A DNA stretch of 33,503 nucleotides from Bacteroidia bacterium (GTDB lineage Bacteria; Bacteroidota; Bacteroidia; SpSt-205), in assembly GCA_025062295.1 (NCBI GenBank), contig JANXAJ010000016.1, positions 1 through 33,503 on the forward strand, given 5' to 3'. The translations under genes were made by a program, and so were the position numbers. Below, piece by piece: positions 159 to 29,820 of this stretch; within the stretch, counting starts at the first letter, position 1, and every line of letters starts with the position of its first letter. The notes under the pieces are model-generated. The model searched no databases. It was given only the letters and a program-made list of their open reading frames with translations, and was not told the DNA's origin.

Positions 159-166
159 TATCTTTG
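159..166 (+). promoter_or_regulatory. Putative -7 box TATCTTTG, leaderless-type
   Basis: TATCTTTG matches the Bacteroidota TAnnTTTG -7 element and ends 5 bases before ATG 172. A TAA stop directly precedes that ATG in frame, so the gene cannot start upstream. No convincing -33 TTG is visible. Confidence 0.6.
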
Positions 167-171
167 GATAA

Positions 172-768
172 ATGAAAGAGCTTTTTCTGGTGGTATGGGC
201 GCAGATGCAAGTGGGTCTTGAAGGCAGTTTAGGAATAGCCCATCGCATTCCCGTGCCTCGCAGCCAGCCTTGGAAAAATGTATTTCTTCGGGTTGGCGGA
301 GAGCAACGCTATCCTGGACTCCATGCAGGAGGGGGGGTCAGCCTTCGCTACCTCTACGAAAAGCGGCGATTCTTAGGATCCGGTGGTCTTCTTCGGCTCT
401 ACGAGGTGAAAGTAGGGGGCCGAGAAGAGCGGTTTCTTGTAGCAAGTGTGCCCGTGCATTGGGGCACCCAGATAGGCTCCTCCGCATGGCGACTATGGGG
501 CGGACTCCTTGCCTCCTTCCTTTTGCAAGCCCAAAGTCAGCCCGAGGCAGTTCAGGTCTATCGCTTCTTGGATTATTTTAGCTCTTCCCAGCTCCAGCTT
601 CATTCAGGTATAGAATGGCGATGGACCTCCCGAAGAACGATAGGACTTCAGACCCTCTGGGACATCACCCCAGCATGGGATCGGATCCTCTTTCAGTCCA
701 GCCGGACCTTAGCTCATCATCTGGTGATTTCTCTCTCTATGCAATATGCGATATGGGAGGGGCAATGA
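172..768 (+). CDS. Exported beta-barrel-like outer-membrane protein, hypothetical
   Basis: This 198-residue protein is unrecognised at family level. It begins with a very short hydrophobic stretch ending in Ala10-Gln11 (VVWAQ), a minimal signal peptide. The rest alternates polar and aromatic/hydrophobic residues in short Gly-rich strands, as in small outer-membrane beta-barrels (for example LHSGIEWRWTSRRTIGLQTLWDI). It ends with hydrophobic residues plus a polar tail rather than a clear C-terminal Phe. The start at 172 is fixed by an in-frame stop just upstream and by the -7 box at 159-166. It heads an operon: its stop overlaps the next start in an ATGA junction. An outer-membrane location is inferred from composition only. 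Confidence 0.6.
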   Translation: MKELFLVVWAQMQVGLEGSLGIAHRIPVPRSQPWKNVFLRVGGEQRYPGLHAGGGVSLRYLYEKRRFLGSGGLLRLYEVKVGGREERFLVASVPVHWGTQIGSSAWRLWGGLLASFLLQAQSQPEAVQVYRFLDYFSSSQLQLHSGIEWRWTSRRTIGLQTLWDITPAWDRILFQSSRTLAHHLVISLSMQYAIWEGQ

Positions 769-1436
769 TACAGGCGGGATGGAAGTATCTGAGGTGGTAT
801 CTCTCCCCCCAGCCCTCCCCTTCCCCTTCCCTCAAAGCTGTAAAAAAGTTATACCATCGTCTCGCTCAAGCTAGGAACTTTGAGATTTCCATTGAGCTTT
901 TTGGTGCTCGTTCTCAAGCTCTTGGTCAAAGTGAATCTTTCTCCCTAGCAGAGCTACTTCAACGCAGTGCTTCGCCTCCTTGGAAAGGCGCCCTCTTGTA
1001 CAGCTTAGTCCGTCGGAGCTCGCCTCGGTACGCCCTTGAGCTGGGGACACACATGGGCTTCGGAACCCTCTACATTGCAGCAGCTGCACCAACGGTAGAG
1101 ATTCATACAATTGAAGCCTCTATTGGACTGGCAAAAATAGCTCAGAGACACTTTCGCCTGCTGGGTGTAAAGCCTCACCTTCACATTGGCTTGTTTGAAG
1201 ACATCCTGCCTCGCCTCCCTGCTCCTTGGGACTTCGTTTATATTGACGGGGACCATCGTGGGGAAGCTTTGCGCACCTATGGACTTTTCCTATATGAGCG
1301 CCTTGCCCCATCAGGACAAATCGTGTGTGATGACATATTTTGGAGTATAGACATGTACCGAGGATGGAAAGAGCTCGTAAGGATGACCCAAGGACGGGCA
1401 GAAATAGTAGGTCCTTTCGGGATTCTTTATAAATGA
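765..1436 (+). CDS. Class I SAM-dependent methyltransferase (Methyltransf_24-like)
   Basis: The predicted protein has 223 residues. Motif I (ALELGTHMGFGT, about residues 88-99) binds S-adenosylmethionine, and an acidic residue follows in HTIEAS. YIDGDHR near residue 159 is typical of Methyltransf_24-type O-methyltransferases. The ORF track begins at 615, inside the preceding gene; I chose ATG 765 because it overlaps the upstream stop as ATGA, has a purine-rich GGGAGGGG just upstream, and starts the conserved part. The substrate is unknown. Its place in an envelope operon suggests a glycan or lipid-linked substrate, which is inference. Its own stop overlaps the transglycosylase start, again as ATGA. 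Confidence 0.8.
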   Translation: MIQAGWKYLRWYLSPQPSPSPSLKAVKKLYHRLAQARNFEISIELFGARSQALGQSESFSLAELLQRSASPPWKGALLYSLVRRSSPRYALELGTHMGFGTLYIAAAAPTVEIHTIEASIGLAKIAQRHFRLLGVKPHLHIGLFEDILPRLPAPWDFVYIDGDHRGEALRTYGLFLYERLAPSGQIVCDDIFWSIDMYRGWKELVRMTQGRAEIVGPFGILYK

Positions 1437-3148
1437 AGCGGTGGTCATTCCTTCTACTTTTTGCTGGATTCCTTTTAGGAATAACATGGCTATGGCTCTT
1501 CCGCCTGTCTCTACTACCCTTTTTTATCTCTATTATAGCCACATGGTACGGCATTGATAGAGTGCGCTATACCGAAGCACATTGGAAGAGACCCCAAGAA
1601 ATCATTTTCTATGAATTGCAAATTGACAAAGGGGGATGGCGTCTAAGCACGGATTCCCTTCGGATTAAGCTTGACATAAGCCGTAAAATTCAGATCCGCC
1701 GGGGTACCCTTGAAGCGATCCTTTCCTCTCCCACAAAGTCTGCTTTAGCAGAAAGGGACTTCTCATCTTATCCCCTTTTACGGGCTCTTCGTCTGCTTTC
1801 CAGCATAGATACACTGGAGTGGCAAGAACTATGTCTTCCTCAAGATTTTGAACTATCTCTTCTGAAAGAGGGTGATACTTGCCGATTCATCTTATCTAGG
1901 GCTGGATCGCTTATTAGGGGAGTAGCAGAAATAAAAGCTTCATCAGTGAATTTCTCCTTACAGAGGGGCAGCTATAGAACAGCTAAAGGGGACTACATGT
2001 CATGGGAGCAGATGGAGGGATTCGTAGAAGCCCAACCGATGGAGATTTTGATGGAGGTATGCGCTCAGCAGCTGACGATATATCATCGTTACTTAGCTCA
2101 GCGGGTCTTAGGGTATTCACAAGTTGGTCTTTACATCCACGGGAAAGCAGAAAAGGATACTTTGAGACTTCAGATAGACCCCTTACTTCTTCCTCTCACT
2201 GCTCGGCTATCCGTATGGGGACACAAAAGAGGAGCCCCTCTCTATTTGCGGCTTCAAGTACCAGCTCAGTCTCATCAGGCATACATTCAGGCTTTTCCAA
2301 AAGGCTTCCTCACCTGTCTCTCCGAAGCAACCTTGGGGGGGACTTCCGCTTTGGACCTTTTCCTACAATATGATCCTAAGTTAGAGGATACTTTGGAGAT
2401 GAGAGTTGACTGGCGCCCCGCAGGGTTTGCTATCTACCATTGGGGGGGGCGTAATCCCTTGACCCTGCGGGAGAGTTTTCTCTATCAGCCCTACGCTTCT
2501 AATCGACTGCTCTGGATAGGACCTGAATCGCCAAACTACCTAAGTTTTTATCAAATTACCCCCTATGTGCTCCATGCCGTGCTCCATAGTGAAGATGGCA
2601 TTTTTTTCTACCATGAAGGGTTTCAAAAAGAGCGTTTCTTGAAAGCGCTTTTAGAAAATTGGCGTTGTCGCTGCTTCCGACGCGGCGCTGGAACTATCAC
2701 GATGCAGCTCGTTCGTAATCTTCTTTTGACCCGAGAAAAAACTTTAGCCCGCAAGGTAGAAGAAATCCTCCTCACAGCGCTAATAGAGCGATTTAGACTG
2801 CTGTCAAAACAGCGGATCGCCGAACTATATCTAAATATCGTTGAATGGGGACCCGAGATTTACGGCCTGACAGAAGCTGCTCGTTTTTACTTCGGTAAAG
2901 AGCCCCATGAACTGACTATACCCGAAGCTATCTTCTTAGGAATGCTTCTGCCAAGTCCGAAAGCATACCTTTTTTTCGTGGACAAAGAGAGAGGATGTGC
3001 TCTTCCCAACCTGAAAACACACTTTCAAACCATAGCTCGGTTTCTGGTACTTCAAAACTACCTTGCTGCTGATTCTGTAGAAGCAATAATCCCCGAGCGG
3101 GTCTGCCTGCAGCCACCTGCTTGGTCCCTTCCCCCTTCACTCAACTAA
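1433..3148 (+). CDS. GT51 peptidoglycan transglycosylase with large N-terminal extension
   Basis: This 571-residue protein polymerises lipid II into glycan strands at the outer face of the inner membrane. Residues about 5-37 are a long hydrophobic anchor. The GT51 domain is C-terminal: SEDGIFFYHEG with the catalytic Glu near 387, RRGAGTITMQLVRN around 416-429, KVEEILLTALIER, and ELYLNIVEWG from about 464. No transpeptidase domain follows, so it is monofunctional, but it is more than twice the length of a typical MtgA. About 330 residues between anchor and catalytic domain look like AsmA-type beta-rich sequence (for example LRIKLDISRKIQIRRGTLEA); that assignment is inference. Start ATG 1433 overlaps the previous stop, and the end overlaps the AsmA-family gene as TAATG. 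Confidence 0.85.
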   Translation: MKRWSFLLLFAGFLLGITWLWLFRLSLLPFFISIIATWYGIDRVRYTEAHWKRPQEIIFYELQIDKGGWRLSTDSLRIKLDISRKIQIRRGTLEAILSSPTKSALAERDFSSYPLLRALRLLSSIDTLEWQELCLPQDFELSLLKEGDTCRFILSRAGSLIRGVAEIKASSVNFSLQRGSYRTAKGDYMSWEQMEGFVEAQPMEILMEVCAQQLTIYHRYLAQRVLGYSQVGLYIHGKAEKDTLRLQIDPLLLPLTARLSVWGHKRGAPLYLRLQVPAQSHQAYIQAFPKGFLTCLSEATLGGTSALDLFLQYDPKLEDTLEMRVDWRPAGFAIYHWGGRNPLTLRESFLYQPYASNRLLWIGPESPNYLSFYQITPYVLHAVLHSEDGIFFYHEGFQKERFLKALLENWRCRCFRRGAGTITMQLVRNLLLTREKTLARKVEEILLTALIERFRLLSKQRIAELYLNIVEWGPEIYGLTEAARFYFGKEPHELTIPEAIFLGMLLPSPKAYLFFVDKERGCALPNLKTHFQTIARFLVLQNYLAADSVEAIIPERVCLQPPAWSLPPSLN

Positions 3149-5439
3149 TGCGGCGGTTCCTTCGCTTCATAGGAGGGGTCCTACTTGCAATAGGAGGAAT
3201 GTTTGGCTTACTCCTGCTTCTCCTTTATGCCTCACGAAAGACTCTCATAGACTGGGTACTAGCAGAGATAGGACGGTCATTTTCCGCACAAATTCAGCTC
3301 CGAAGCATACAGCTTGTAACCCTACATACCTTCCCAAACGTGGGTATCAGGCTTTATGAACCTCTTTTCCAAAGTAAGAGGGGAGATACGCTTTTCTCAG
3401 CCCAAATAGTGGACCTTCACTTCAATCTCTGGGAAGTCCTTATGAGACCGACCCCTTATATCCGAGCCCTCACTCTGATAGGCCCAGAAGTCTGGATTTT
3501 CTATGATAGAAAGGGGTATTCTCCATGGGAGTCGGTGTTTGATGAAAAGAGCCAGCAAACGCCCTCCAGAAAGCCTTCCTCTATGTGGGCTTTAGAAAAA
3601 GTTCGGGTAAGAAAAGGCAAACTTATCTACAAGGATGCGAAAGCGGGAATACACTTCTGTCTCTTTTTAGCGCGGCTTGAAGCACGAGTAGAAGGGAAAG
3701 GAGAAGAGCTCAAGATTCGAGGGGAAGGGGAAGGACATATAGAATATCTGAAACATCATCAGGGCGTATGGCTAAGGGGACAGCCTTTCATGATTCAGGG
3801 GGGGCTAAGTCAAGAGGAAGGGTGGCTGGTATCCTCAGGGCTTAAGCTTCACCTTGCAGGGCTTGCCCTTCATTTAGAAGGAGGGATTCACACCGCTGTG
3901 TCTCCCCCAGAACTCTCTCTAAGAATTCCTTCTATAGAGCTAGACCTTAACTATCTACATCATTGGGGGATAAAGGTGCCCGTCGCTCTTGCTTATTCTT
4001 CGGGAATACTTCGGGGAGAGGGAACTATCTTAGGACCAGCTGGACGAGGCAAGCTACCTCGGCTGCGCCTCAAAGCTGAACTCTCTACCGATAAGCCTTT
4101 CTCAGTAGAAGGGTACCCCTTCCACCGCCTCTATGCTCGCGGTTCGCTGTACTGGGATCTTCAAATGCCTGCCAAAAGCCTGCTAAAAATAGATACATTT
4201 TTTTTCGCTGGCGGCGAGCACGACACCCTTAGAGGACGACTCACCTATGGCTTGCTTGCCCCCCAACTCTCATCCGCTTTTCAAGCTCACATAGATCTGG
4301 AAGCCCTTCGCTTCTTTTCTCTCCCTTATGGACAGAATTTCTCAGGCAAGCTTTCCACACAAGGAGAAGTCTCTCGTGATCAGAAAAGATGGAGCATCTC
4401 TGCAAGTGGAGAGATGAGAAAGATTCGCTTCCCGAAAGGGATCATTGAAGAGGCTTCTTTCACTATGACGCCTTCTCAACTGAACCTTCAGGATCTCCGA
4501 CTTATCCTTGAAACTACTCAAGTCCATAGCCCCGCACTGAGAATACAAAATTACACCAGACTCTGGGACACTACTGCCCCACCCTTGCATGTAACCGGGA
4601 AAATTTTTATTCCAGCTTTTGCTTATGCCCCTGACACCTCTCAAAGCAGCCACCTGCCCTGGAACGGCGAGTTAGAGGTGAAGGTAGAGACCCTATACGC
4701 CATGGAGCAGAGGTATGGACCTCTTCATGCTCGCTTCATGAAGAAGAATGATACTCTCAAAATAGACTTCCTTCGTTTGAGAGGGGTAGGGGGAGGAGGA
4801 TTAGGAGGGCAAGGGCTTTTCCTTCCGCACCTCATCTACGGGGAGGGAGAATTTGACCAGATAGACCTTCATCAGCTCTCGCTTCAGGCCCCCATGCTGG
4901 ATACCCTCTTCCCTTTGCTTCGCCATTTGAGGGGAAAGGCTAACGGTCGCTTTCGCTTTTCCCTTCCTTTCCAAGGCGAAAAACTTCGTTGGGCAGACGC
5001 AGAAGCAGAACTGACTCTCAAAATCCGGGACCTAGTCGTGGTAGAGAGTCCCTACACCTACGAACTATTTTCTATTATCCCTCTCACGGATTTCCGCCGA
5101 ATAGAAGTGGGAGAAGTAGAGACTCGGATCTCTCTTCGGGAAGGAGTGATCCGAACAGATACAACTTGGCTGCGAGCGAATCGCTGGATAATGCGAGTAT
5201 CTGGTGCTCATACTCTCCAAGGCGAGCTTTCATATGATTTGTTGGTAGAAGTACCTCGTATTTTGTTAGACAAAAGCCCTGAACGCACTAAGGCTCTTAT
5301 AGAGGAAGCAGAAGGGGAAAGAGTGCGTTTAGTTGTGACGGTCTCAGGCACGACCCAAAAGCCGCTCTTTCATTGGAAACCTGCAAGGCGAGTTTCTCCC
5401 TCAAAAGGACGCACTCCCCCCCTCATAGAAGAGCGATGA
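3148..5439 (+). CDS. AsmA-family protein
   Basis: This 763-residue inner-membrane-anchored periplasmic protein has one N-terminal transmembrane helix (about residues 4-27, GGVLLAIGGMFGLLLLLLYA). Next comes the AsmA-style opening, in which a short amphipathic segment is followed by strands (FSAQIQLRSIQLVTLHTFPNVGIRLYEP). The rest is beta-rich with an AsmA C-terminal-like end (ANRWIMRVSGAHTLQGELSYDLLVEVP). AsmA/TamB/YhdP proteins form elongated hydrophobic grooves and are linked to phospholipid transport to the outer membrane and to outer-membrane homeostasis. The ORF track starts at 3121; ATG 3148 is preferred because it overlaps the upstream stop (TAATG) and directly precedes the membrane helix. 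It is last in the four-gene operon. Confidence 0.8.
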   Translation: MRRFLRFIGGVLLAIGGMFGLLLLLLYASRKTLIDWVLAEIGRSFSAQIQLRSIQLVTLHTFPNVGIRLYEPLFQSKRGDTLFSAQIVDLHFNLWEVLMRPTPYIRALTLIGPEVWIFYDRKGYSPWESVFDEKSQQTPSRKPSSMWALEKVRVRKGKLIYKDAKAGIHFCLFLARLEARVEGKGEELKIRGEGEGHIEYLKHHQGVWLRGQPFMIQGGLSQEEGWLVSSGLKLHLAGLALHLEGGIHTAVSPPELSLRIPSIELDLNYLHHWGIKVPVALAYSSGILRGEGTILGPAGRGKLPRLRLKAELSTDKPFSVEGYPFHRLYARGSLYWDLQMPAKSLLKIDTFFFAGGEHDTLRGRLTYGLLAPQLSSAFQAHIDLEALRFFSLPYGQNFSGKLSTQGEVSRDQKRWSISASGEMRKIRFPKGIIEEASFTMTPSQLNLQDLRLILETTQVHSPALRIQNYTRLWDTTAPPLHVTGKIFIPAFAYAPDTSQSSHLPWNGELEVKVETLYAMEQRYGPLHARFMKKNDTLKIDFLRLRGVGGGGLGGQGLFLPHLIYGEGEFDQIDLHQLSLQAPMLDTLFPLLRHLRGKANGRFRFSLPFQGEKLRWADAEAELTLKIRDLVVVESPYTYELFSIIPLTDFRRIEVGEVETRISLREGVIRTDTTWLRANRWIMRVSGAHTLQGELSYDLLVEVPRILLDKSPERTKALIEEAEGERVRLVVTVSGTTQKPLFHWKPARRVSPSKGRTPPLIEER

Positions 5440-5562
5440 ACCCCTCCTTGCTATCTTATGCTACTCTTCTCCGAAAGCAAGTATAAGCAAATGGGAACCT
5501 GGCTAAACCTAAAGCCATCCCATCACCAAACTAAAAGCATGACAAGGTAGCATACTCCCCTC

Positions 5563-5570
5563 TATCTTTG
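5563..5570 (+). promoter_or_regulatory. Putative -7 box TATCTTTG, leaderless-type
   Basis: A perfect TAnnTTTG match ends 7 bases before ATG 5578, at the end of the 138-base gap after the AsmA-family gene. No clear -33 element is visible. It would drive the exporter operon. Confidence 0.6.
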
Positions 5571-5577
5571 CCCTTAA

Positions 5578-6396: not shown

Positions 6397-7637
6397 GCCA
6401 GACCCCCATAATTCAAATCGTAGAGCTGAGCAAAAAATACCGCATTCGTCCAAGAGAACGGTATATAGCGGCGCGAGAACGGCTCAACCTAATTCTTACT
6501 CGTCCATGGAAGGCATTTCGGTTCTCCGCCCGAGAAACCTTTTGGGCTTTGCGGGACATAAGCTTTGAGGTAGAGGAAGGGGAAGTTATCGGCATCATCG
6601 GTCGCAATGGAGCGGGTAAAACTACCCTCCTCAAACTCCTTTCTCGGATTACAGAGCCAACAGAAGGCTACGCTATCTTGCGTGGGCGAGTGGGAAGCCT
6701 ATTAGAAGTGGGCACAGGGTTTCACCCAGAACTTACAGGCAGGGAGAATATCTACTTCAACGGCGTTCTTTTAGGAATGTCTAAAGAAGAGGTAAGAAGA
6801 AAACTGGATGAGATTGTTGAATTTGCTAATGTAGGAGAATTTTTGGATATGCCAATCAAACATTATTCCAGTGGTATGGCATTTCGTCTCGCCTTTTCCG
6901 TAGCTGCCCATTTAGAACCAGAAATTCTAATAGTAGATGAGGTCTTGGCTGTAGGCGACATAGAATTTCAGAAAAAATGCTTGAATAAGATGGAAGAAGT
7001 TTCTCGTCGTGCTGGACGCACTGTTCTTCTCGTGTCTCACCAGCTCAATCAGATTCGGCAGCTCTGCACTCGCGTAGTCTGGCTAGAAGCAGGACGCATC
7101 CGCATGATTGGTCCGACCTTAGAAGTTACAGCCGCCTATGAAAAATCCATAACAAGTGAAGATGAACGGCTCAGTCCAGGACAGCGGACTTCCTCCCAAA
7201 AAGGAAGTTTCCGCCGATGGAGGCTCATTCAACCCTCAGAAGCTCCTCACATCCTCTCTACATTCGGACCTGTTTCCGTAGAATTTCAGCTTGAGATAAA
7301 TAAACCATTGCGAGGCTTAGTCCATGGAGTCGCTCTAATGACTCTAGACCAGAGAGTCCTATGGTCAACCTACAACAATTTTACCTCCCTGAAACCGGGA
7401 GTATATCATTTGCTTTACAACTTTGAAATGCTTCCCCTCAATACTGGAATGTACCTCTGGCGAGTCAGCTTATACGATGAGGATGGACTGGTAGATGTGT
7501 GGGATGGCTTGCCTTATATGGAAGTTCAACTTCCTAACTTTCAACATATGTATGACAACTGGATTGGACCTATGAATTTACCTCATAGGAAGGAGGTAAG
7601 ATATGAAGAAAGTCTCTATCCGACAACGATATCTTAG
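6393..7637 (+). CDS. wzt: Polysaccharide ABC exporter ATPase with C-terminal Wzt-like domain
   Basis: This 414-residue ATPase powers the permease encoded just upstream. The Walker A motif GRNGAGKT is at about 70-77, the signature segment YSSGMA at about 158, Walker B ILIVDEVLAVGD around 178-189, and the H-loop in VLLVSHQLNQ. About 140 residues follow the nucleotide-binding domain (from about 275), with beta-sandwich character like the Wzt C-terminal domain, which binds the modified non-reducing end of O-antigen in characterised systems. The ORF track starts at TTG 6387, but ATG 6393 forms an ATGA overlap with the permease stop. The FkbM methyltransferase gene begins inside its 3' end (35-base overlap); a methylated glycan terminus as export signal is an attractive inference. 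Confidence 0.93.
   Translation: MSQTPIIQIVELSKKYRIRPRERYIAARERLNLILTRPWKAFRFSARETFWALRDISFEVEEGEVIGIIGRNGAGKTTLLKLLSRITEPTEGYAILRGRVGSLLEVGTGFHPELTGRENIYFNGVLLGMSKEEVRRKLDEIVEFANVGEFLDMPIKHYSSGMAFRLAFSVAAHLEPEILIVDEVLAVGDIEFQKKCLNKMEEVSRRAGRTVLLVSHQLNQIRQLCTRVVWLEAGRIRMIGPTLEVTAAYEKSITSEDERLSPGQRTSSQKGSFRRWRLIQPSEAPHILSTFGPVSVEFQLEINKPLRGLVHGVALMTLDQRVLWSTYNNFTSLKPGVYHLLYNFEMLPLNTGMYLWRVSLYDEDGLVDVWDGLPYMEVQLPNFQHMYDNWIGPMNLPHRKEVRYEESLYPTTIS
7588..7597 (+). promoter_or_regulatory. Strong Shine-Dalgarno sequence (GGAAGGAGGT)
   Basis: GGAAGGAGGT lies 5 bases before ATG 7603 and inside the end of the ATPase gene. It is close to a full anti-SD match, which is unusual here: most first genes in this window have no room for a ribosome binding site. 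It fixes the FkbM start. Confidence 0.75.
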
Positions 7638-8433: not shown

Positions 8434-8496
8434 ATGTTTGTCCTTTCTCCAAGTAGAGGCGAGAAAAAAGTTGAAAGGTCAAAGTCAGATTTTTTA

Positions 8497-8504
8497 TAAA
8501 TTTG
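8497..8504 (+). promoter_or_regulatory. Putative -7 box TAAATTTG, leaderless-type
   Basis: TAAATTTG ends 3 bases before ATG 8508. The TTG start used by the ORF track (8502) lies inside this box. A TTG at 8471-8473, 23 bases upstream, could serve as the -33 element. Confidence 0.6.
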
Positions 8505-8507
8505 GGC

Positions 8508-9707: not shown

Positions 9708-9727
9708 TCCCTTGTGCCAGCTGGCTT

Positions 9728-9961: not shown

Positions 9962-10078
9962 ACGTATGGCGAATAAAACAAAAGTTTTTTATCATGCCGC
10001 AGAGGGTCTCATGAAGAAGAGCTGACGGACACCTCTCACCATACCTGTGAGCTCACCACAATAATCCCTTTAATTCCG

Positions 10079-10086
10079 CATCTTTG
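10079..10086 (+). promoter_or_regulatory. Putative -7 box CATCTTTG, leaderless-type
   Basis: CATCTTTG, one base off TATCTTTG, ends 4 bases before ATG 10091, at the end of the 129-base gap between the divergent CDGSH and barrel genes. The same variant sits before rpe and the SirB1-like gene. Confidence 0.55.
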
Positions 10087-10090
10087 TATT

Positions 10091-10846: not shown

Positions 10847-10849
10847 ATA

Positions 10850-12250: not shown

Positions 12251-12822
12251 GTGATCGTGGGGTAAATTCGGAGGAGCTCATACTTCATACGATCAATAAT
12301 AGGGGCAAGAGAGTCCTCTGCACCAGCAACCTTGAAATAAGAAGCTATCATCAGCGCATACCGAAGAGAATCGGTGTAAAACAAAAGAGCATGCGTTGGA
12401 GCCTCACCATAAATTTCATAAAAAAATCCTTTCCCTCCTGGTCCTCGAATAAATTTTTCTTGAATATCCGTAGCTCTAATAGCATGTTTGTAAATAAGCT
12501 TTCGGTAAGTTTCTAATGCTTTTTGAGGGGTTTTATGCAGAGTCTGCAAATCATGAGCAGTAATATGCCAGTAGGCATCTAACTCAGGAAAGTAAAGGTC
12601 AAACCAACAAGAATCCTTTGGAACATAGTGAAGCTTTGCATAAGCAGGATAGGCGAAGCGCATCGGGCAAATAGCACACTCTAGTGTATCATATTTGCCT
12701 GTATCAGGCATCTCTATACGAGGATAGGCTTTGGGACGAGGAAGCCTCGGCGTTTCGCAGGAGGCGATAAGCCCGAATCCGATCAATCCGATGGGCACTG
12801 CCCTCCACCACTTCAAACGCAT
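12208..12822 (-). CDS. gldD: Gliding-motility lipoprotein GldD
   Basis: The 204-residue protein has a lipoprotein signal ending in a lipobox (GLIASC, Cys at about 22). The GldD-type start of the mature part follows (PRPKAYPRIEMPDTG), then C-x-x-CPMRFAYPAYAKLHYV. GldD is required for gliding motility in Flavobacterium and occurs across Bacteroidota together with GldE; both are associated with T9SS function. The length matches the family. The start lies 119 bases inside the 3' end of gldE, an unusually long overlap; ATG 12822 gives the only good signal sequence. A short AGGA lies just before the start. The order gldE-gldD differs from the order I recall in some flavobacteria. Confidence 0.88.
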   Translation of the reverse strand: MRLKWWRAVPIGLIGFGLIASCETPRLPRPKAYPRIEMPDTGKYDTLECAICPMRFAYPAYAKLHYVPKDSCWFDLYFPELDAYWHITAHDLQTLHKTPQKALETYRKLIYKHAIRATDIQEKFIRGPGGKGFFYEIYGEAPTHALLFYTDSLRYALMIASYFKVAGAEDSLAPIIDRMKYELLRIYPTITWKAVQLTRMRTCF

Positions 12823-13993
12823 AGTCCTGATAAGTCAAAATTTCGCCTTTCTGGGGAATTCTTTTTGCAAGCGAAAGTAAAAACTCGGCTAAGTTTTCCG
12901 CTGTGCGTGCCTCCTCCTGAGTAAAAAAGTCCGTGGGAAGTCCTAAAAGTTCTTGAACCAGCAGAAGAGGGGTCTGGGCCTTGAAACAAAAAGAACCATC
13001 CGAATACATCTCATATAAGGCTTCTGTACCGCGAGCTTCTTCCTCTCCATACCCGAAAACCACCTCTAAGAGTCTCTGGAGAGAAAGAAGCCCAGCAATG
13101 TTCCCAAACTCATCTACTACAATAGCTACATGTTGGCGCTTATTCTTAAGCTCCAAGAGAAGGTCGTATGCATTCTTTGTCTCGGGAACAAAGTAGGCAG
13201 GACGAATGAGAGCTTGCCAATTTTTGAGGTCTTCTTTATCCCAGTGTGGAAGAAGATCCTTGAGAATGAGAATCCCAATAATCTCCTCTTGCTCACTCCT
13301 ATGGACAGGGATGCGAATATAAGGGATATCAGCGACCGCTTTCTTGAGCTCTTCCCATGAAAGATCAGCCGACACACTCCTCATGTCCATTCTGGATATC
13401 ATGAGAGACTTTACAGGAAGCTGCCGAAGTAAAAGGATGTTTTTTAAGATCTTCTTTTCTACGGGAGGAGAGATTTCAGAAGGAAGAGCCTCAACCATCT
13501 GGCTCAGCTTCTGAGGGGAGGCAGAGGGCTGCCAACGCGCTTCTATCCACTGACGAAGTCGGTCTAATCCCCGACTGGCAGGATAGATAAGCCAGAATAC
13601 ATGCTGAATGAGTGGGGTCCCTACTCGGAGAAAGAACCGGGGAAAGCTAATGGCTAAGGTTTTTGGAATAATTTCGCCAAAAAGGACAATACTTCCAAGT
13701 GCTACAGCACCAGCGATCGTCTCTCCTATAGCCCCCCATGGACGCGCTATCCGAAGAAGAATAAGGGTAACACCCAAATTCACTAGCGTATTTCCAATCA
13801 GAATGCTACTCAAAAGCAACTGAGGGCTTTCTGAAAAATATCGCAGCCAGTGTGTCCAAGGTCGATTGCGACCCTCTTGCATCAGCAAAGCTAACTGAGG
13901 AGGACTCAGCGAAAAAAACGCCGTCTCATACCCTGAAAAAAGCGCAGAGGCAAAAAGGAAGCCGATAGCCCCAGCAACTGGTAGGGGATCCAA
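12704..13993 (-). CDS. gldE: GldE, CNNM/CBS/CorC-type membrane protein
   Basis: This is a 429-residue protein of the hemolysin-C/CNNM family in GldE context. An N-terminal four-helix CNNM membrane domain (about 5-165; FSGYETAFFSL, LIGNTLVNLG, FGEIIPKTLA) is followed by paired CBS domains (about 190-310; HVAIVVDEFGNIAGLLSLQRLLE) and a CorC_HlyC domain (about 335-415). GldE is linked genetically with GldD in gliding. The ORF track uses ATG 14065, but a TATCTTTG box at 14001-14008 lies inside that extension. TTG 13993, 7 bases after the box, yields MDPLPVAG, which starts directly at the membrane domain. The 3' end overlaps gldD by 119 bases. Other CNNM proteins act in Mg/Co transport. Confidence 0.88.
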   Translation of the reverse strand: MDPLPVAGAIGFLFASALFSGYETAFFSLSPPQLALLMQEGRNRPWTHWLRYFSESPQLLLSSILIGNTLVNLGVTLILLRIARPWGAIGETIAGAVALGSIVLFGEIIPKTLAISFPRFFLRVGTPLIQHVFWLIYPASRGLDRLRQWIEARWQPSASPQKLSQMVEALPSEISPPVEKKILKNILLLRQLPVKSLMISRMDMRSVSADLSWEELKKAVADIPYIRIPVHRSEQEEIIGILILKDLLPHWDKEDLKNWQALIRPAYFVPETKNAYDLLLELKNKRQHVAIVVDEFGNIAGLLSLQRLLEVVFGYGEEEARGTEALYEMYSDGSFCFKAQTPLLLVQELLGLPTDFFTQEEARTAENLAEFLLSLAKRIPQKGEILTYQDYAFEVVEGSAHRIDRIRAYRLLRNAEASSSQSLSSYRDA

Positions 13994-14000
13994 TTCAAGG

Positions 14001-14008
14001 CAAAGATA
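14001..14008 (-). promoter_or_regulatory. Putative -7 box TATCTTTG for gldE, leaderless-type
   Basis: The plus strand reads CAAAGATA, giving TATCTTTG on the minus strand, ending 7 bases before TTG 13993. It is paired with the divergent box at 14024-14031. Confidence 0.6.
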
Positions 14009-14023: not shown

Positions 14024-14031
14024 TACTTTTG
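14024..14031 (+). promoter_or_regulatory. Putative -7 box TACTTTTG, leaderless-type
   Basis: TACTTTTG ends 7 bases before GTG 14039. It lies 15 bases from the oppositely oriented gldE box, making a very compact divergent promoter. Confidence 0.55.
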
Positions 14032-18981: not shown

Positions 18982-18990
18982 AAGAAAGCT

Positions 18991-19749
18991 ATGAGCAAAG
19001 GTAGAGTGGGCCTTCTACTCTGTTGCATTCCTGCGCTCCTCTCAGTTCGGTTCATGAAACCTTCTCTTGTCGTGATAGACCCTGGTCATGGGGGTAAAGA
19101 CCCTGGCGCTTCAGGAAAAGTGTATAAGGAAAAAGACATTACTCTTAGTGTCGCTCTCAAGCTATCAGAACTTCTGAAGAAGGACCCCCTTTTTCGTCCC
19201 GTCCTCACGCGAGAGAATGACACCTTTGTAGAACTAATTCGTCGGGCTGACACAGCTAATAAGCTTCATGCTGATTTCTTTATCAGCATCCACTGTAATG
19301 CCAATCCTAAGAAGGAGGTGCATGGTTCTGAAACGTATGCCCTTGGGGAGCACAAGTCCCAAGACAATTTAGCAGTGGTGATGCGAGAGAATTCGGCGAT
19401 TCTCTTAGAGGAAGGCTATCAGCGCACCTATGAAGGGTTTGATCCCAATTCAGAGGAGGCTTATATCATTTTCTCTTTGATTCAGCATGCATATCTCAAG
19501 CAGAGCCTCCGTTTAGCAAGGAAGATTGAAGATAACCTTTCAGAAAAGACGAGTCGCGTCAGTCGGGGGGTCAAGCAAGCGGGGTTCCTTGTACTGTGGC
19601 GGACAGGAATGCCCTCCGTTCTGTGTGAGATTGGCTTTATCACGAATCCAACTGAAGAAAAGTTTCTCGCTTCTGAATCTGGTCAGACTTACATCGCTCA
19701 AGCCCTATATCAGGCGCTTCGGCAGTATATTGCGACCCAACCAGAGTAG
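18991..19749 (+). CDS. N-acetylmuramoyl-L-alanine amidase (Amidase_3)
   Basis: This 252-residue zinc amidase cleaves the bond between N-acetylmuramic acid and the stem peptide, acting in the periplasm in septum splitting or remodelling. Zinc ligands and catalytic residue are visible: VVIDPGHGGKDPGA (His33), the Glu in KEKDITL, SIHCNAN (His101) and CEIGF (Glu213). It is nearly all catalytic domain, without SPOR or AMIN domains. A hydrophobic N-terminus (VGLLLCCIPALLSV) is probably a signal or anchor. The ORF track begins at TTG 18967, antisense inside the lptD-like gene; ATG 18991 is more plausible. Candidate -7 boxes are imperfect (ATAATTTG 18962-18969, CATCTTCG 18971-18978). It heads a plus-strand unit with glycosyltransferases. 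Confidence 0.93.
   Translation: MSKGRVGLLLCCIPALLSVRFMKPSLVVIDPGHGGKDPGASGKVYKEKDITLSVALKLSELLKKDPLFRPVLTRENDTFVELIRRADTANKLHADFFISIHCNANPKKEVHGSETYALGEHKSQDNLAVVMRENSAILLEEGYQRTYEGFDPNSEEAYIIFSLIQHAYLKQSLRLARKIEDNLSEKTSRVSRGVKQAGFLVLWRTGMPSVLCEIGFITNPTEEKFLASESGQTYIAQALYQALRQYIATQPE
18996..19003 (-). promoter_or_regulatory. Putative -7 box TACCTTTG for lptD-like gene
   Basis: CAAAGGTA on the plus strand, within codons 2-5 of the divergent amidase gene, gives TACCTTTG on the minus strand, 14 bases before ATG 18981. This is a longer spacing than for the other boxes. Confidence 0.4.
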
Positions 19750-19774
19750 GGAAGCTCCTTTTAGCCCCCACTCA

Positions 19775-21960: not shown

Positions 21961-22957
21961 AAACGAAGCCTCTACCCTTCCTTCTCTTTTGGAAAGTCTC
22001 AGGCAGCAGTCTCTGCCGCCCAGCGAGGTCATTGTCGTGGATGCAGGATCTTGTGATGAGACTACACGGATAGCCCGGCAGAAAGGCGCTCGGGTTATAA
22101 GAGTAGATTATGCTTATCCTGGACAAGCAAGAAACATAGGGATTGCTCTGGCTTGCAGCGAGATTATAGCTTGCTGGGATGCAGATATGCGGCTCGCCCC
22201 CTCGGCTTTAGGACATCTTATCCAACCCCTCATGGAAGGTTCGGCAGATATTGCATACAGCCGAATTGAGGTGTATCCTCAAAACCTCCTTGCTGCTTTG
22301 CGATTTAGTGTATTAGAGCCCCCCTATACCCATATCCTGTCCCAGAGAGAGAAGACCTACATTCACTTTGCTGCTGGGGTTGCATTTCGGCGAGAAGTAT
22401 GGGAGCAAAGTGGCGGCTTTCCTCCCTGGCGGGCCCGAGAAGACAATGAGTTTTACGCCCGAGTCTCTGCCCTCCACTTCCAACAGGCCTATGTGCATGA
22501 GGCGATAACTTTCTGGGAGCCCTCGGAGAGGTGGTCTGGTCTCCTCAATAAATTGCGAGTCTATGCTCGTCATAACCTTCTGTCCGGCAAGCCTCAAGAG
22601 TGGTACGGTCGACTCTTCCTTCTCTATCTACTCTATACTGTAGTTGGGATTAGTGGGCTAATAGGAGGAGGTGTGCCCTTCGGGATTTTCCTTTTCTTGA
22701 GTAGCATAGGAGGGGTGACTCTCATGCGAACCTTACGCAGAGTGATTCGTTACCGACACTTTTTGCGTTTTAGATGCAGCCTCAATCCCTATTCTCCTCG
22801 CACCCTACTAGCCGGATGGGCTCTCCTCTTGGGAATGGATGTGGCTTCCCTTGTAGGACTTATAGAATGGATTATTCTGGACAAACTCCGCTTGAAGCCC
22901 GAACGCTTCCCACCGAGTCGCATCCTTGAAGAGCTTTCGCCATCTTTGCCTGAGTGA
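21929..22957 (+). CDS. GT2-family glycosyltransferase, paralogue 2
   Basis: This 342-residue GT-A glycosyltransferase is homologous end to end with the gene before it (VSVVIPAKNEASTLPSLLESLRQQ; VIVVDAGSCDETT; YPGQARNIGIALA; FWEPSERW; YARHNLLSGKPQEWYG). It has an intact DXD-type motif (WDADM, Asp84 and Asp86) and WRAREDNEF. Hydrophobic segments near 230-250 and 295-315 suggest membrane attachment. ATG 21929 starts directly at the conserved VSVVIPA motif and overlaps paralogue 1 by 32 bases. The rpe start and promoter lie inside its last codons. Substrates are unknown; glycan or lipid-sugar assembly is inferred from the neighbouring GT4 gene and amidase. Confidence 0.92.
   Translation: MSGVSVVIPAKNEASTLPSLLESLRQQSLPPSEVIVVDAGSCDETTRIARQKGARVIRVDYAYPGQARNIGIALACSEIIACWDADMRLAPSALGHLIQPLMEGSADIAYSRIEVYPQNLLAALRFSVLEPPYTHILSQREKTYIHFAAGVAFRREVWEQSGGFPPWRAREDNEFYARVSALHFQQAYVHEAITFWEPSERWSGLLNKLRVYARHNLLSGKPQEWYGRLFLLYLLYTVVGISGLIGGGVPFGIFLFLSSIGGVTLMRTLRRVIRYRHFLRFRCSLNPYSPRTLLAGWALLLGMDVASLVGLIEWIILDKLRLKPERFPPSRILEELSPSLPE
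22941..22948 (+). promoter_or_regulatory. Putative -7 box CATCTTTG for rpe, inside upstream gene
   Basis: CATCTTTG ends 5 bases before GTG 22954 and lies within the last codons of the upstream glycosyltransferase. It would let rpe be transcribed independently as a leaderless mRNA. Confidence 0.5.
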
Positions 22958-23607
22958 GAAAGCCGCTCATCGCCCCTTCCCTTCTCTCAGCAGATTTCAG
23001 TCGGTTAGCAGAGGAAATTCAGAATCTGGAACAGCTCGGTGTAGACTGGTTTCATTGCGATGTAATGGATGGAGCCTTCGTACCCAATATCTCATTTGGA
23101 GTACCTATTATAGAGGCTATTCGTCAATGCACGACTCTTCCATTAGATGTCCATCTGATGATCCAAGCGCCAGAAAGATACATCCAAACCTTTGCCGAGG
23201 CAGGGGCAGATATTCTAACCTTTCATTGGGAGGCTACGCCTCATCCAGATCGTCTTATTCAGCAAATTCACAGCTTAGGCAAACAGGCGGGTATTGCCCT
23301 CAATCCAGCTACTCCCGTAGAAGTCCTTGTAGATATCTTGCCAGAGGTAGAGGTAGTGTGCGTAATGAGCGTGAACCCTGGTTTCGGAGGGCAGCGATTT
23401 ATTCCGTACATTACACATAAAGTTCAAAGACTTTGGGAGCTTCGGCAGCGACGAAATGCAAGAGCTCTTATTGAAGTAGATGGTGGCATCTCTCCAGAAA
23501 CAGTCCTACAAATACCTCAAGCAGATGTCCTTGTAGTTGGACATAACCTGCTCCGGGCACCAGACCGAATTAAGGCATTAGAGGCCTTACGCACTGCCTG
23601 GATGTAA
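22954..23607 (+). CDS. rpe: Ribulose-phosphate 3-epimerase
   Basis: The 217-residue TIM-barrel enzyme interconverts D-ribulose 5-phosphate and D-xylulose 5-phosphate in the pentose phosphate pathway. Family motifs are IAPSLLSADFSRLAEEI, WFHCDVMDGAFVPNISFG (metal His and catalytic Asp), LDVHLMI, VMSVNPGFGGQRFI (phosphate-binding loop) and IEVDGGISPET (catalytic Asp). The start is GTG: reading from GTG 22954 gives RKPLIAPSL, and the next in-frame Met is far inside the conserved region. It overlaps the preceding stop by 4 bases and has its own CATCTTTG box. A strong hairpin follows about 95 bases downstream. Confidence 0.97.
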   Translation: MRKPLIAPSLLSADFSRLAEEIQNLEQLGVDWFHCDVMDGAFVPNISFGVPIIEAIRQCTTLPLDVHLMIQAPERYIQTFAEAGADILTFHWEATPHPDRLIQQIHSLGKQAGIALNPATPVEVLVDILPEVEVVCVMSVNPGFGGQRFIPYITHKVQRLWELRQRRNARALIEVDGGISPETVLQIPQADVLVVGHNLLRAPDRIKALEALRTAWM

Positions 23608-23701
23608 AAATCTCCTCTACCTGCACAGCTCTCCATATCACAGAGAAAGACCCGGTATATGGTGTCTAGAGTCGTGGCAAGCCACCCCCTGATTAGACAA
23701 A

Positions 23702-23740
23702 AAGACGGCAGCCGCCCTTTACTTCAGCGGCTGCCGTCTT
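23702..23740 (-). terminator. Strong intrinsic terminator hairpin
   Basis: AAGACGGCAGCCGC (23702-23715) and GCGGCTGCCGTCTT (23727-23740) form a perfect 14-bp GC-rich stem with an 11-base loop. On the minus strand the stem runs into CTTTTTGTC, so it best terminates the T9SS-type gene ending at 23763. It may also stop plus-strand transcription from rpe, although no T-run follows on that strand. Confidence 0.85.
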
Positions 23741-23762
23741 AGGCCTGAATGAAATCTCCTTA

Positions 23763-25052: not shown

Positions 25053-25056
25053 GGCG

Positions 25057-25064
25057 CAAATATA
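25057..25064 (-). promoter_or_regulatory. Putative -7 box TATATTTG, leaderless-type
   Basis: CAAATATA on the plus strand gives TATATTTG on the minus strand, 4 bases before ATG 25052. It lies in the 21-base gap between two minus-strand genes. Confidence 0.6.
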
Positions 25065-25073
25065 GAGAGTTTC

Positions 25074-25913
25074 TCAAAGCTGAAGGTTTATACGCTGACG
25101 TAAGGCTGCGTAGAGTTCATATTTGTCGTATTCTTGTTCACGCTCATAGGCTTGTTCTAAGTGCTGAATGAGCCGCAGAATAAGGTATGGATGAGAAAGC
25201 GAGGCATAATGAGCTAGATTCTCTGAAAGGCCTATATTATGAAGGATCTGCTTGAGCTGCTCAGCAAGAAGGACAAGCCCCCGCTGATATGGATCAATGT
25301 AGAAGTGGAGGTTGCCGTCAAAATAGCGAATGAGATAGCGGGAGCCAATGGCAATAGTGCTGACCTGCAGTCCGAGTTCAGAGGCTAAAAGATAGTACAA
25401 GATAGTAAGAGAGAAGCTATTGCCACGGTGAGTGTCTAAGAGCTCATGAAGAAAGTAGTATCGGGGAGCGGAAGGACGAGTCAGCTCTGGTTGAAACTTC
25501 TCTTGAACAAAGAGCTGACGATTGAGAGTCAGAAGCTTTTCAAAGGGGTCTCCATGTGAAGGGAGCTGAAGCCAAGTTGTATGAATAAGACGGCGATAAG
25601 CACTGATGTATTTATTGAGGTTGAGGGAGGGGTAGCGGAGCTGAGCCACTGCCATCAGGGCAGGAAAAAGAGGCTGTTCGGGACTCAATCTCCATTCGTA
25701 AAGGGACTGTCCTATAATTTCTAATTGAATGAGGTCTAATAGCTCTTCTATGCGCTTCTGAAGGTGAGGGTCTGTGGTTTCGAGCCATTTTTGCTCTAAA
25801 AGAGGAATAGCTTGACGTCCTGCTTTCAGGAGGACCTCTTCTAAGTGGGCTTGAACCTGGGGATCCGGATCATCCAAGAGCTGAAGAAGAGCCTTTAGCT
25901 GCTCCACTGCCAT
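25074..25913 (-). CDS. SirB1/transglutaminase-like family protein
   Basis: The predicted protein has 279 residues. The N-terminal 65 residues have HEAT-like helical character (LLDDPDPQVQAHLEEVLLKAGRQAIPLLEQKW). The segment FLHELLDTHRGNSFSLTILYYLLASELGLQVSTIAIGSRYLIRY matches the SirB1-type transglutaminase-like core ('L..R.G.p.sLs.ly..va..lGl...g...p.hfl'). The catalytic Cys/His pair of active transglutaminases is not evident, so it may be non-catalytic. Such proteins are widespread and poorly characterised. The ORF track starts at 25943; I moved the start to ATG 25913 because a CATCTTTG box (25918-25925) lies inside the longer version, ending 4 bases before this ATG. It appears cytoplasmic. 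Confidence 0.75.
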   Translation of the reverse strand: MAVEQLKALLQLLDDPDPQVQAHLEEVLLKAGRQAIPLLEQKWLETTDPHLQKRIEELLDLIQLEIIGQSLYEWRLSPEQPLFPALMAVAQLRYPSLNLNKYISAYRRLIHTTWLQLPSHGDPFEKLLTLNRQLFVQEKFQPELTRPSAPRYYFLHELLDTHRGNSFSLTILYYLLASELGLQVSTIAIGSRYLIRYFDGNLHFYIDPYQRGLVLLAEQLKQILHNIGLSENLAHYASLSHPYLILRLIQHLEQAYEREQEYDKYELYAALRQRINLQL

Positions 25914-25917
25914 GAAG

Positions 25918-25925
25918 CAAAGATG
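25918..25925 (-). promoter_or_regulatory. Putative -7 box CATCTTTG, leaderless-type
   Basis: CAAAGATG on the plus strand gives CATCTTTG on the minus strand, 4 bases before ATG 25913. It is divergent from the box at 25976-25983. Confidence 0.55.
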
Positions 25926-25975
25926 CAAACAAAAGGTTGGCATTCCCTGCGAAAAACATCTGTAAAAGATTTTTC

Positions 25976-25983
25976 TAACTTTG
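25976..25983 (+). promoter_or_regulatory. Putative -7 box TAACTTTG, leaderless-type
   Basis: TAACTTTG ends 4 bases before ATG 25988. No -33 TTG is seen at the usual spacing. Confidence 0.6.
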
Positions 25984-25987
25984 AGGT

Positions 25988-26386
25988 ATGCGACAGGTGT
26001 GGGGGGTTATGATTCTTGCTATGCTCTGGGCGCAAGAAGAGAGTCGGACTCGTGAGAATGTGCAAGGCCTACGACCCAGCGTGGGCAAAGTTCCTCGCTC
26101 AGCTCCAAAAGAGGAGGTTATCGTCATGGAGACTGTAACTGGCGAAGTGGCAGACAAAGCTGGAAAGCCCGTCTCAAATCTAAGGTTATGGATCGTGGAT
26201 AAAGAGTCAGGTAAAGTCTTAGCCGAAACACGGACTGATGAGAAAGGAGGATTTGCACTGGTGATTCCAGCCTCTGCTCAGAAGCTGATTATTCGTATGA
26301 GCCACGAAGGCAAGTCCTTCACTGAGCAAGAATACACTCTATCTGATCTCTTGCAGTTGGAAAGCCCCCTCATATTTGATCCATAG
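25988..26386 (+). CDS. Small exported carboxypeptidase-regulatory-like protein
   Basis: The 132-residue protein has a short signal peptide ending Ala15-Gln16 (AMLWAQ) and a charged, flexible stretch to about residue 45. A single beta-sandwich domain follows (VTGEVADKAGKPVSNLRLWIVDKESGKVLAETRTDEKGGFALVIP), typical of CarboxypepD_reg/Cna-B-like domains. In Bacteroidota this fold often sits at the front of TonB-dependent receptors or stands alone in exported proteins. No catalytic residues are expected. Its stop lies 21 bases before the S8 protease start, so co-expression is possible, although the protease may have its own promoter. Function unknown. Confidence 0.7.
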   Translation: MRQVWGVMILAMLWAQEESRTRENVQGLRPSVGKVPRSAPKEEVIVMETVTGEVADKAGKPVSNLRLWIVDKESGKVLAETRTDEKGGFALVIPASAQKLIIRMSHEGKSFTEQEYTLSDLLQLESPLIFDP

Positions 26387-26394
26387 AGGGTTCT

Positions 26395-26402
26395 TACCTT
26401 TA
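26395..26402 (+). promoter_or_regulatory. Weak -7-like box TACCTTTA before protease gene
   Basis: TACCTTTA departs from TAnnTTTG at the final base and ends 5 bases before ATG 26408. Position fits the pattern, match is imperfect. Confidence 0.35.
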
Positions 26403-26407
26403 CTTTC

Positions 26408-29400
26408 ATGGCTTTAGGATGGATTGTGCTGTGGCTTTTGCTTCAGGCTCAGCCTGAGGTGTGGCAGGGAAGGGTTCTCTTTGAGCTAAAACCAGGCTTT
26501 AGCATTCAGTCCCTTCCAGAAGAGCTAGAAAGTCTAAGAGTATGGGTAGAAGGACAAGTAAGGCCCCGCTTTCCTTCTCTCCCAAGCAAAAGTCCGATAT
26601 ATCTTTTAGAATACGAACGAAGGCTGTCCCCTCTGTATGTAGCCAAACTCTGGCGGCAGAGCCCAGCCGTCCTGTATGCTGAGCCAGAATATATTCCGAA
26701 GCCTTTAAGTGCTTATCCTGCCCCGAAAGAGGACCCCCAAAGGCTCACCTATGAACCCAATGATTTGCATCCTGATAACCACTGTTTATCTCATCTGCGC
26801 ATCCTCTCTGCATGGGACAGTACAAAAGGAGATACTACAGTTGCCGTGGCCATTGTAGATACGGATGTGCGCTGGGATCATCCAGACCTTGTAGAAAACA
26901 TCGCATATAACTGGAACGACCCAATCAATGGTGTAGATGATGATGGGGATGGATATGTAGATAACTTTCATGGATGGGACATAGTGGGAACTACCTATTC
27001 TGGGTCGGGTCCTTTCAGTGGAGATAATGACCCTCGGCTCCCCGGATGGAGCGCTCATGGGACTTGGGTAGCAGGCTTTGCGGGTGCTACGACTGATAAT
27101 GGCATAGGCATAGCTGCGCCCGCCTTCCGATGTCGCCTCCTCCCGATTAAAGCAGGACCGGATGATAATCCTGACTGGCTTTTTGGAGCATATGATGGGA
27201 TATTGTATGCAGCGCAAAAGGGAGCCAAAGTGATCAACTGCTCGTGGGGGGGTACCTTTTATTCACAGGCAGCCCAAAATTTTATCTCGCAAATCCTCAA
27301 TACTTATGATCCCCTAATCGTAGCCGCAGCAGGGAATGTCCCCCCAGATACCCCTACAAAATTTTATCCCGCTCAGTATGAGGGAGTCTTATCTATCACA
27401 GCCGTCAATCCAAATGATGTATGGGAGGGATGGGTTCAGATTGGCTATGATATAGATTTGTCAGCGACAGGAAGTGGCATTACCCTAAGTGGCTTGAGTG
27501 ATTACGTATACTGGGGGTCTTTCACTTCCTTTTCTTCTCCTCAAGCGGCTGGAGCTGCTGTACTTCTGCGCTCATGGCGTCCCGACTTGAATGCTCGACA
27601 GATTACCGAACTCTTGCGCCTTACGGCTGACTCAGTAGAACCTTTCAATCCTTCTCACCTCCGCTATCGGCTTGGACGCCGTATCAACCTTCAGCGCGCT
27701 GTAGCTACTCGCGATACCCCCGCCTGCAGGGTCAGAAGCTGGCGTGTGTTTGACCAAAATGATGATCTTCTTTTTGCAAACGAAACATTCTTTTTGACTG
27801 CTGTCTATACTAACTACCTCTCTTCCGCAACGAATCTCAGCGTCACCATAGAATCTCTTTCCCCTCACGTGGAAGTGCTTCAAGGTACTTACGTTGTCGG
27901 ATCCCTTCCCGCACTTCAGACTCATACCCAAGCTTCCCCTTTTGCTCTCCGTGTCCTTCCTTCCTGCCCCCCTAATACTCGCCTACCCGTCCTTTTCCGA
28001 TTTGTAGCAGATGGAGGGTATGCTGATTATCAGGTGATAGAGATTCCATGGGTCAATCCTTCCTATGTCCATTTAGATTCTGCTCAGATTCGGACGACCC
28101 TCTGTGGCAATGGACGAATAGGGTATTATGACTCTCCACAGAATACTCAAGGGAGAGGGATTCTCTGGGCTTCTCTCACTCAGTCTCTTCTTGCTAGTGG
28201 AGGACTCGTGATAAGTGATGACACGAGTGCTCATCTGAGCACTCAAGCTCCCTTCGGAGCGATGTACGATCACTTTGTTCCGATGAATGCTGCCACTCAT
28301 ACAGCGGATGGACTCTATGAGCGGGGACTGGTCCGGTTTATGGATAGTCGGGGTTTGGGGCTGAATTCACCTGATGGTATTGCTGGAAAAGGCCTCTCTT
28401 TTGAGGCCCACGGGTATGCCATTCGGCGACATCCTGCCAATACTTTTGTTGCATGCCTCTATCGTATAGAGAATACCTCTTCGCAGACTTACCCAAACCT
28501 CTGTATAGGCTGGTGGCTTGATTTGGATTTGGGGAATAATCCTGTCTTTGACCATGCCTTTGTGCACCCTACCTTGCCCCTCGTCTATGCTCGGAATAAT
28601 AGCCAGACTCGCTTCGTGGGTGCAGTGCTTTTATCTGGACACGCTTCTATTAAGAAAATAGGGAGAATGGATACTTTCTCAGCTACACTTCCTGCTTATT
28701 TAGGAATCATGCGAAGTTCTTCCTCTGTATCTTCACTAAATGGCGATGTCTTCATTTTTATAGGTGCTCAGGATGTTTCCCTCTTGCCAGGGGGCGTAGA
28801 TACTGTGGCATTTGCCCTTGTTGGAGGCTACACTCTCGCAGAGTTAGAACTTCGTGCCCAGGAGGCACTGAACTGGTATGCGTGCTTTACTCAAGGTTCA
28901 GCTCCCCTTGTAGATTTGGGAGAAGATCGCCTTCTATGCTTGGGGGATAGCCTACACTTTACTTCTACATCCACGGGTGAGATTGTGTGGTCCACCGAGG
29001 AGACGACCCCTGCAATCGTCCCAACGACAGATGGCCTCTATTGGCTTCTTCTACGGGATGCGGATGGCTGCTGGGGATATGATGAGGTCTATATTACAGT
29101 TCATCGTTTTGCAGAAGCAGAGGTTAGCTTTGAACCAGGACTCACAGTAAGTGTCGGCGAGACCCTTACAGTTAGAGAGACGAGTGGGCTGCCTTACAGG
29201 TATATTTGGCTTCTCGGAGATAGCGTATTTGAAGGCCCTGAACTGAGGTATGTCTTTGCCGAAACTGGGATTTATACTCTCTGGCTCTACAGAGAATCTC
29301 AAGGATGCCGAGACACTCTACGATGGGAGATCACAGTTCAATCCCCTGCAAGCCTTTCTCAGCCTATAAGCAGTGCAGTAGAGATCCATCCAAATCCAAC

Positions 29401-29602
29401 TGGCGACCGCTTTTCCCTCACTTATAGAGGAAACGAACTGCTTGGCGAACGATTTTCTCTTTACAATGCTTTGGGAGAGCAGGTGTGGGAGGTTTTTCTG
29501 CGAGAATCAGGAGCGATGTATGGTCTGCCCTCAGCCCTACCTCCAGGACCTTATTTCTGGCGAGTGGGCAAGTATAGAGGCATCCTCCTGCATGTACCCT
29601 AA
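26408..29602 (+). CDS. Secreted subtilisin-family (S8) protease with T9SS sorting domain
   Basis: The 1064-residue protein has a short signal peptide ending Ala14-Gln15 (LLLQAQ), an inhibitor-like propeptide region to about residue 110 ([22 protein letters not shown]), and an S8 catalytic domain from about 115 to 440. The triad is visible: Asp151 in [15 protein letters not shown], His217 in [10 protein letters not shown], Ser374 in [11 protein letters not shown]; the oxyanion Asn is in VAAAGN. The insert [18 protein letters not shown] is a likely calcium-binding loop. Beta-sandwich and PKD-like regions follow ([26 protein letters not shown]). The last 75 or so residues ([16 protein letters not shown]...[10 protein letters not shown]) form a type A sorting domain, so export through T9SS is predicted. 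Confidence 0.92.
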
Positions 29603-29610
29603 AGAAGCTG

Positions 29611-29618
29611 TACTTTTG
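29611..29618 (+). promoter_or_regulatory. Putative -7 box TACTTTTG for rpmB, leaderless-type
   Basis: TACTTTTG ends 4 bases before ATG 29623, within the 20-base gap after the protease stop. It would separate rpmB expression from the protease gene. Confidence 0.6.
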
Positions 29619-29622
29619 CTGT

Positions 29623-29820
29623 ATGTCCCGAGTCTGTCAGGTGACAGGACGCCGCCCCCAGCGTGGATACAACGTGTCTCATTCAAATCGGCACACGAAG
29701 CGTTGGTTTGCTCTCAATCTTCAACGGAAGCAGCTATCCCTCAATAGGTCTAAGCAGAAGCTCCGCCTTACCACTCGGGCTCTGAAAACGCTTTACCGAA
29801 AAGGTTATTTACCCTCTTGA
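29623..29820 (+). CDS. rpmB: 50S ribosomal protein L28
   Basis: The 65-residue basic protein of the large ribosomal subunit starts with the family signature [34 protein letters not shown] and ends with [17 protein letters not shown]. It is short compared with many Bacteroidota L28 proteins but has the conserved core. The Cys pair found in some L28 proteins is absent apart from Cys5. The usual rpmG partner is not downstream: the convergent nnr gene overlaps its last 16 bases. The start is supported by the TACTTTTG box 4 bases upstream; there is no room for a Shine-Dalgarno sequence on that transcript. Confidence 0.95.

Follow-up and report, generated by a model that had tools for sequence, protein, structure and literature searches.

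Boxes and genes of the window

The window, that is, the whole 33,503-nucleotide stretch of Bacteroidia DNA that was analysed (contig JANXAJ010000016.1), contains eleven sites at which an earlier note had placed a box resembling the Bacteroidota -7 promoter element a few bases before a start codon. All eleven boxes were found in the sequence where that note had put them and with the spacings it gave. They are listed below with the genes that concern us here; Nk denotes k bases between the box and the start codon.

159 to 166, plus strand: -7 box TATCTTTG, a strict box, N5 to ATG172; start independently called
172 to 768, plus strand: operon-leading gene for a 198-residue protein without a Pfam family; predicted leader of about 1 base
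5563 to 5570, plus strand: -7 box TATCTTTG, N7 to ATG5578 (ABC-2 membrane protein, PF01061); not conserved in congeners
8497 to 8504, plus strand: -7 box TAAATTTG, N3 to ATG8508 (DUF4476 protein)
10079 to 10086, plus strand: CATCTTTG, N4 to ATG10091
12704 to 13993, minus strand: CNNM/CorC-type gene with a UUG start; predicted leader of about 3 bases
14001 to 14008, minus strand: -7 box TATCTTTG, N7 to TTG13993 of the CNNM/CorC-type gene
14024 to 14031, plus strand: box TACTTTTG, N7 to GTG14039; unconfirmed, start not called and box not conserved
22941 to 22948, plus strand: CATCTTTG, N5 to GTG22954; within the 3' end of the upstream gene
22954 to 23607, plus strand: ribulose-phosphate 3-epimerase gene, starting at GTG22954
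23763 to 25052, minus strand: gene predicted to be leaderless (N4)
25057 to 25064, minus strand: -7 box TATATTTG, N4 to ATG25052; in a 21-base intergenic gap
25074 to 25913, minus strand: transglutaminase-like gene, predicted to be leaderless
25918 to 25925, minus strand: CATCTTTG, N4 to ATG25913
25976 to 25983, plus strand: -7 box TAACTTTG, N4 to ATG25988; divergent from the box at 25918
25988 to 26386, plus strand: gene predicted to be leaderless (N4)
29611 to 29618, plus strand: box TACTTTTG, N4 to ATG29623 (65-residue open reading frame); unconfirmed, no gene called

Eight of the eleven sites carry TAnnTTTG (159, 5563, 8497, 14001 on the minus strand, 14024, 25057 on the minus strand, 25976 and 29611), and three (10079, 22941 and, on the minus strand, 25918) carry CATCTTTG. 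A gene caller that was blind to upstream sequence agreed with nine of the eleven proposed starts; it missed 14039, calling 14129 instead, and called nothing at 29623, and these two starts are unconfirmed. There are 28 strict boxes in the window, counting both strands, and six of them lie 3–9 bases before independently called starts, as against about 0.08 expected by chance at that distance before 27 starts.

Elsewhere on the minus strand of the window, TACCTTTG at 18996–19003 lies at N14 to ATG18981, for which a leader of roughly 10 bases is predicted, and is thus one of the exceptions. A long homopolymer run at approximately 33425–33460 (poly-T on the minus strand) adjoins the upstream side of the minus-strand open reading frame 31358–33418.

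Spacing and conservation of the box

The genome to which the window belongs comprises 2.05 Mb in 74 contigs, and 938 kb of it, taken as stretches, was scanned. TAHHTTTG-N(k)-ATG occurred 5, 5, 6 and 9 times for k = 0–3 and 66, 28, 19, 19, 17 and 16 times for k = 4–9, with about 7.7 occurrences per position beyond. It can be seen that the raw counts rise abruptly at N4 and tail off on one side only, to N9, with N0–N3 at or near background. Since the G of the -7 box sits at -5 in Flavobacterium johnsoniae (PMC6847099), N4 would make the A of the ATG the first transcribed base, and an onset there agrees with transcription beginning no further downstream than this base. The N3 spacing, which bears on the box at 8497, was weakly enriched genome-wide (19 against 10.8).

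Gene calls were made blind to upstream sequence, replacing an earlier codon-only caller that gave poor starts. With these calls the box was found 4 bases before the start in 56 cases, at 5 bases in 21 and at 6–8 bases in 33, with few cases at 10–60, and it stood at N4 before 45 of 329 operon heads as opposed to 6 of 315 internal genes. Applied to the window's own genome, a weight matrix that had been trained on a congener (G006) identified a box at N4–N9 of 38–42% of operon heads, compared with 1–2% in far windows, about 9% of operon-internal genes and 3–4% of the operon heads from 80 further Bacteroidota loci. A single pooled model served for gene calling in these 80 loci, which makes their starts rougher; there the box peaks at N16–N25, as in leadered genes, and a start-free count over them revealed no N4 peak. 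The earlier note had predicted that the box would be enriched genome-wide at a constant small distance from starts, and this was seen by raw scan, by gene calls and by weight matrix.

More than half of the predicted operon heads have no recognisable near-start box. Wrong start calls, wrong operon calls or the use of other sigma factors could account for these, and some may be leadered. Tandem promoters are common in bacteria, and together with the boxless heads this would be compatible with near-start boxes that are real but minor promoters, the main transcripts arising with leaders from promoters further upstream. However, the -7 box is slightly enriched at 10–33 bases, at about 3% per 6-base window against 1% far upstream, so a second sigma-A promoter is not evident for most such genes, and we regard this explanation as improbable.

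The start calls are imprecise, being exactly the same in 67 of 148 orthologue pairs. Among these 67 pairs the box was within 9 bases of the start in both genomes in 17 cases and in one genome only in 2, so that 17 of the 19 pairs having a box retained it in both. Within the window, TTG13993 and its box at N7–N8 were kept in all eight genomes of the genus with that region (own genome included), while the flanks diverge, and the box at 25976 was kept in four of four genomes, at N4, N4, N4 and N5.

The CATCTTTG sequence had been put forward as a variant of the box. As a general variant it was rejected, the pattern CA[CT][ACT]TTTG showing no N4 enrichment genome-wide (ratio 1.0), but at two loci it is conserved. 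CAnnTTTG before 25913 occurs at approximately N4–N5 in several congeners, and one congener has TATATTTG. That before 22954 is likewise kept in congeners, in one of which the overlapping upstream codons are in another register, which speaks for conservation at the DNA rather than the protein level. The sequences at 22941–22948 and 25918–25925 are perhaps members of a weaker or regulated class of promoter.

Identity of the box

A strict TAnnTTTG was present upstream of 14 of the 22 tRNA genes in the window's genome (nearest spacing 4–14) and of 6 of the 8 in congener G006 (nearest spacing 4–9), and most of the remaining tRNA genes in both are directly behind another tRNA. In both genomes the box of tRNA-Asn is at N4, from which it follows that transcription starts no more than 5 bases past its final G. 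Spacing from the mature 5' end is mostly 4–9 in these two genomes as compared with mostly 12–16 in other Bacteroidota loci, suggesting that promoters are nearer the gene starts for tRNAs too and that tRNA leaders are shortened. The N4 enrichment before start codons is base-specific: a mismatch at T1, A2, T5, T6 or G8 removed most of it, and a G at position 3 or 4, which is rarer, retained some. As tRNA genes are led by the same box and the enrichment depends on individual bases, we identify the box as the -7 element of sigma-A, the housekeeping sigma factor of the Bacteroidota, and not as a translational signal.

In agreement with the earlier note, which had reported no consistent -33 TTG, we found no TTTG or TTG element at -33, and composition is flat upstream of the boxes. 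Nor has a -33 motif been recognised in F. johnsoniae (PMC7366714), which means that it is no strict requirement.

That note had also raised the alternative of a novel start-proximal element, for example one that binds the ribosome or S1, with the mRNA beginning further upstream. The box does occupy the position of ribosome-binding signals, and the missing -33 element would also suit a translational role, but this reading is disfavoured: the box stands at a similar distance before tRNA genes, is largely missing from internal genes and so marks operon heads, and agrees at each base with the sigma-A -7 consensus in the literature, and N0–N3 lack enrichment, as they should if transcription starts at N4. 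We consider a translational element very improbable. A compositional or gene-calling artefact, which imprecise start calls might have produced, is refuted beyond reasonable doubt, as the N4 peak is seen without gene calls, is lacking at non-start codons and for the reversed pattern run on the same genomes as a control, and gives way to a count of 15 at N20 against 137 at N4 in the window's own genome.

Start codons, predicted leaders and their distribution

At N4, in the window's genome and G006 together, ATG (112 against 10.8) and GTG (38 against 8.5) were enriched, and TTG (5 against 12.6), CTG, ATA, ATT and ATC were not. AUG and GUG are thus the only start codons enriched at N4. TTG is not used at this spacing, although the UUG of the minus-strand gene at 12704–13993 is conserved with its box at N7–N8.

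The box-to-start spacing is fixed, the boxes are concentrated at operon heads, used by tRNA genes and conserved among congeners, and N4 has an ATG/GTG-only signature. Judged from the sequence, a sigma-A -7 box set against the start codon very probably gives rise to leaderless or nearly leaderless mRNAs for a large share of operon heads. We infer the exact transcription start from the Flavobacterium geometry, bounded by the tRNA-Asn genes. The promoter would be so placed that, for many operon-leading genes, transcription starts at the start codon itself (N4) or 1–5 bases before it (N5–N9), the latter producing short leaders rather than none. By analogy with known systems, the 5'-terminal AUG or GUG would be bound by ribosomes loaded with initiator tRNA.

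No excess of Shine–Dalgarno (GGAGG-like) sequences was detected upstream of starts, the frequency being 3–4% in all gene classes, which by our own estimate is about chance. Ribosomal protein bS21 is present. A search for 16S rRNA, at whose 3' end CCUCC would be kept or missing, gave no gene in any of 12 genomes while control genomes gave a signal, probably because these genes had been left out of the data. A lone strong Shine–Dalgarno-like sequence, AGGAAGGAGG, occurs at 7587–7596 upstream of ATG7603, in a genome otherwise without such sequences. The ATGA overlaps that had been noted for internal genes were borne out, being present in 90 of 383 close co-directional pairs (23%) compared with 15 of 273 in other Bacteroidota. 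Internal genes, without Shine–Dalgarno sequences and often overlapping in this manner, may be translated through coupling or reinitiation; the likeness to known termination–reinitiation at ATGA overlaps lies in the 23% of pairs, and it is from the overlap itself that coupling is proposed here. A more far-reaching version, in which heads throughout the family are translated almost only from a 5'-terminal AUG or GUG and internal genes through ATGA coupling, with leadered initiation as the minority mode, is possible but rather doubtful.

A promoter box approximately 10 bases before the start, with a 5' RUG, in a sizeable share of genes is likewise known from Mycobacterium tuberculosis (Actinobacteria), where leaderless transcripts are defined by a 5' RUG (PMC9094748), and from Deinococcus-Thermus (PMC3160421). 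The box in those groups is TANNNT, whereas the family described here belongs to the Bacteroidota, uses the Bacteroidota -7 box TAYCTTTG and is without Shine–Dalgarno genes alongside. The sigma-ABfr promoters of Bacteroides and Flavobacterium share the -7 consensus TAHHTTTG, in which G is disfavoured at the middle two bases, and their -33 element is weak or not found; however, their known members are leadered. About 3.7% of 5' untranslated regions in B. thetaiotaomicron are shorter than 10 nt (PMC7366714), 5.5% of F. psychrophilum is leaderless (PMC9723704), and 87% of leaders in F. johnsoniae exceed 10 nt (PMC6847099).

When 37 Bacteroidetes/Chlorobi genomes were surveyed in 2011, leaderless genes turned up in one of them, and the authors thought it unlikely that large fractions had gone unnoticed (PMC3160421). 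Leaderless mRNAs were considered in 2017 as a possible cause, among others, of the AT-rich bias in Bacteroidetes, a question that study did not settle (PMC5397173). A literature search made mostly outside subscription journals did not turn up any Bacteroidota lineage described as having a dominant leaderless architecture. The family departs from the 2011 survey and from the three mapped Bacteroidota transcriptomes, all leadered. A practical rule also follows, by which gene starts in genomes of this family can be corrected and promoters called from start codons.

N4 counts were 105–190 in all 12 genomes of the family that were examined, with 0–14 in reversed-pattern controls, and the ratio of N4 to N20, determined for five of them, was 9–19, compared with no more than 4.4 in the 21 other genomes. 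In a sample of 396 genomes from the phylum, the window's genome had the highest N4 density over control. One genome that resembled these by raw count (G031, 108 at N4) is not counted as leaderless, since none of 57 classified genes in a 100-kb stretch had a near-start box.

A sister family (G012; L148–L152) showed little N4 excess but had 84 boxes at N7 against 37 at N20, which suggests leaders of about 3 bases, as if the architecture were shifted by three bases; the comparison with this family and with leadered genomes rests on pattern counts and the 80 pooled loci. With the sister family and others showing related shifts, the evolution of leader length can be traced inside a single phylum, and one that was already without Shine–Dalgarno sequences. 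Mixed profiles, in which a partial leaderless-type peak stands beside a leadered one, were seen in G051 (L141–L147, L192–L196) and in the SKYG108 genome (L058), the nearest named relative by RpoD (71%).
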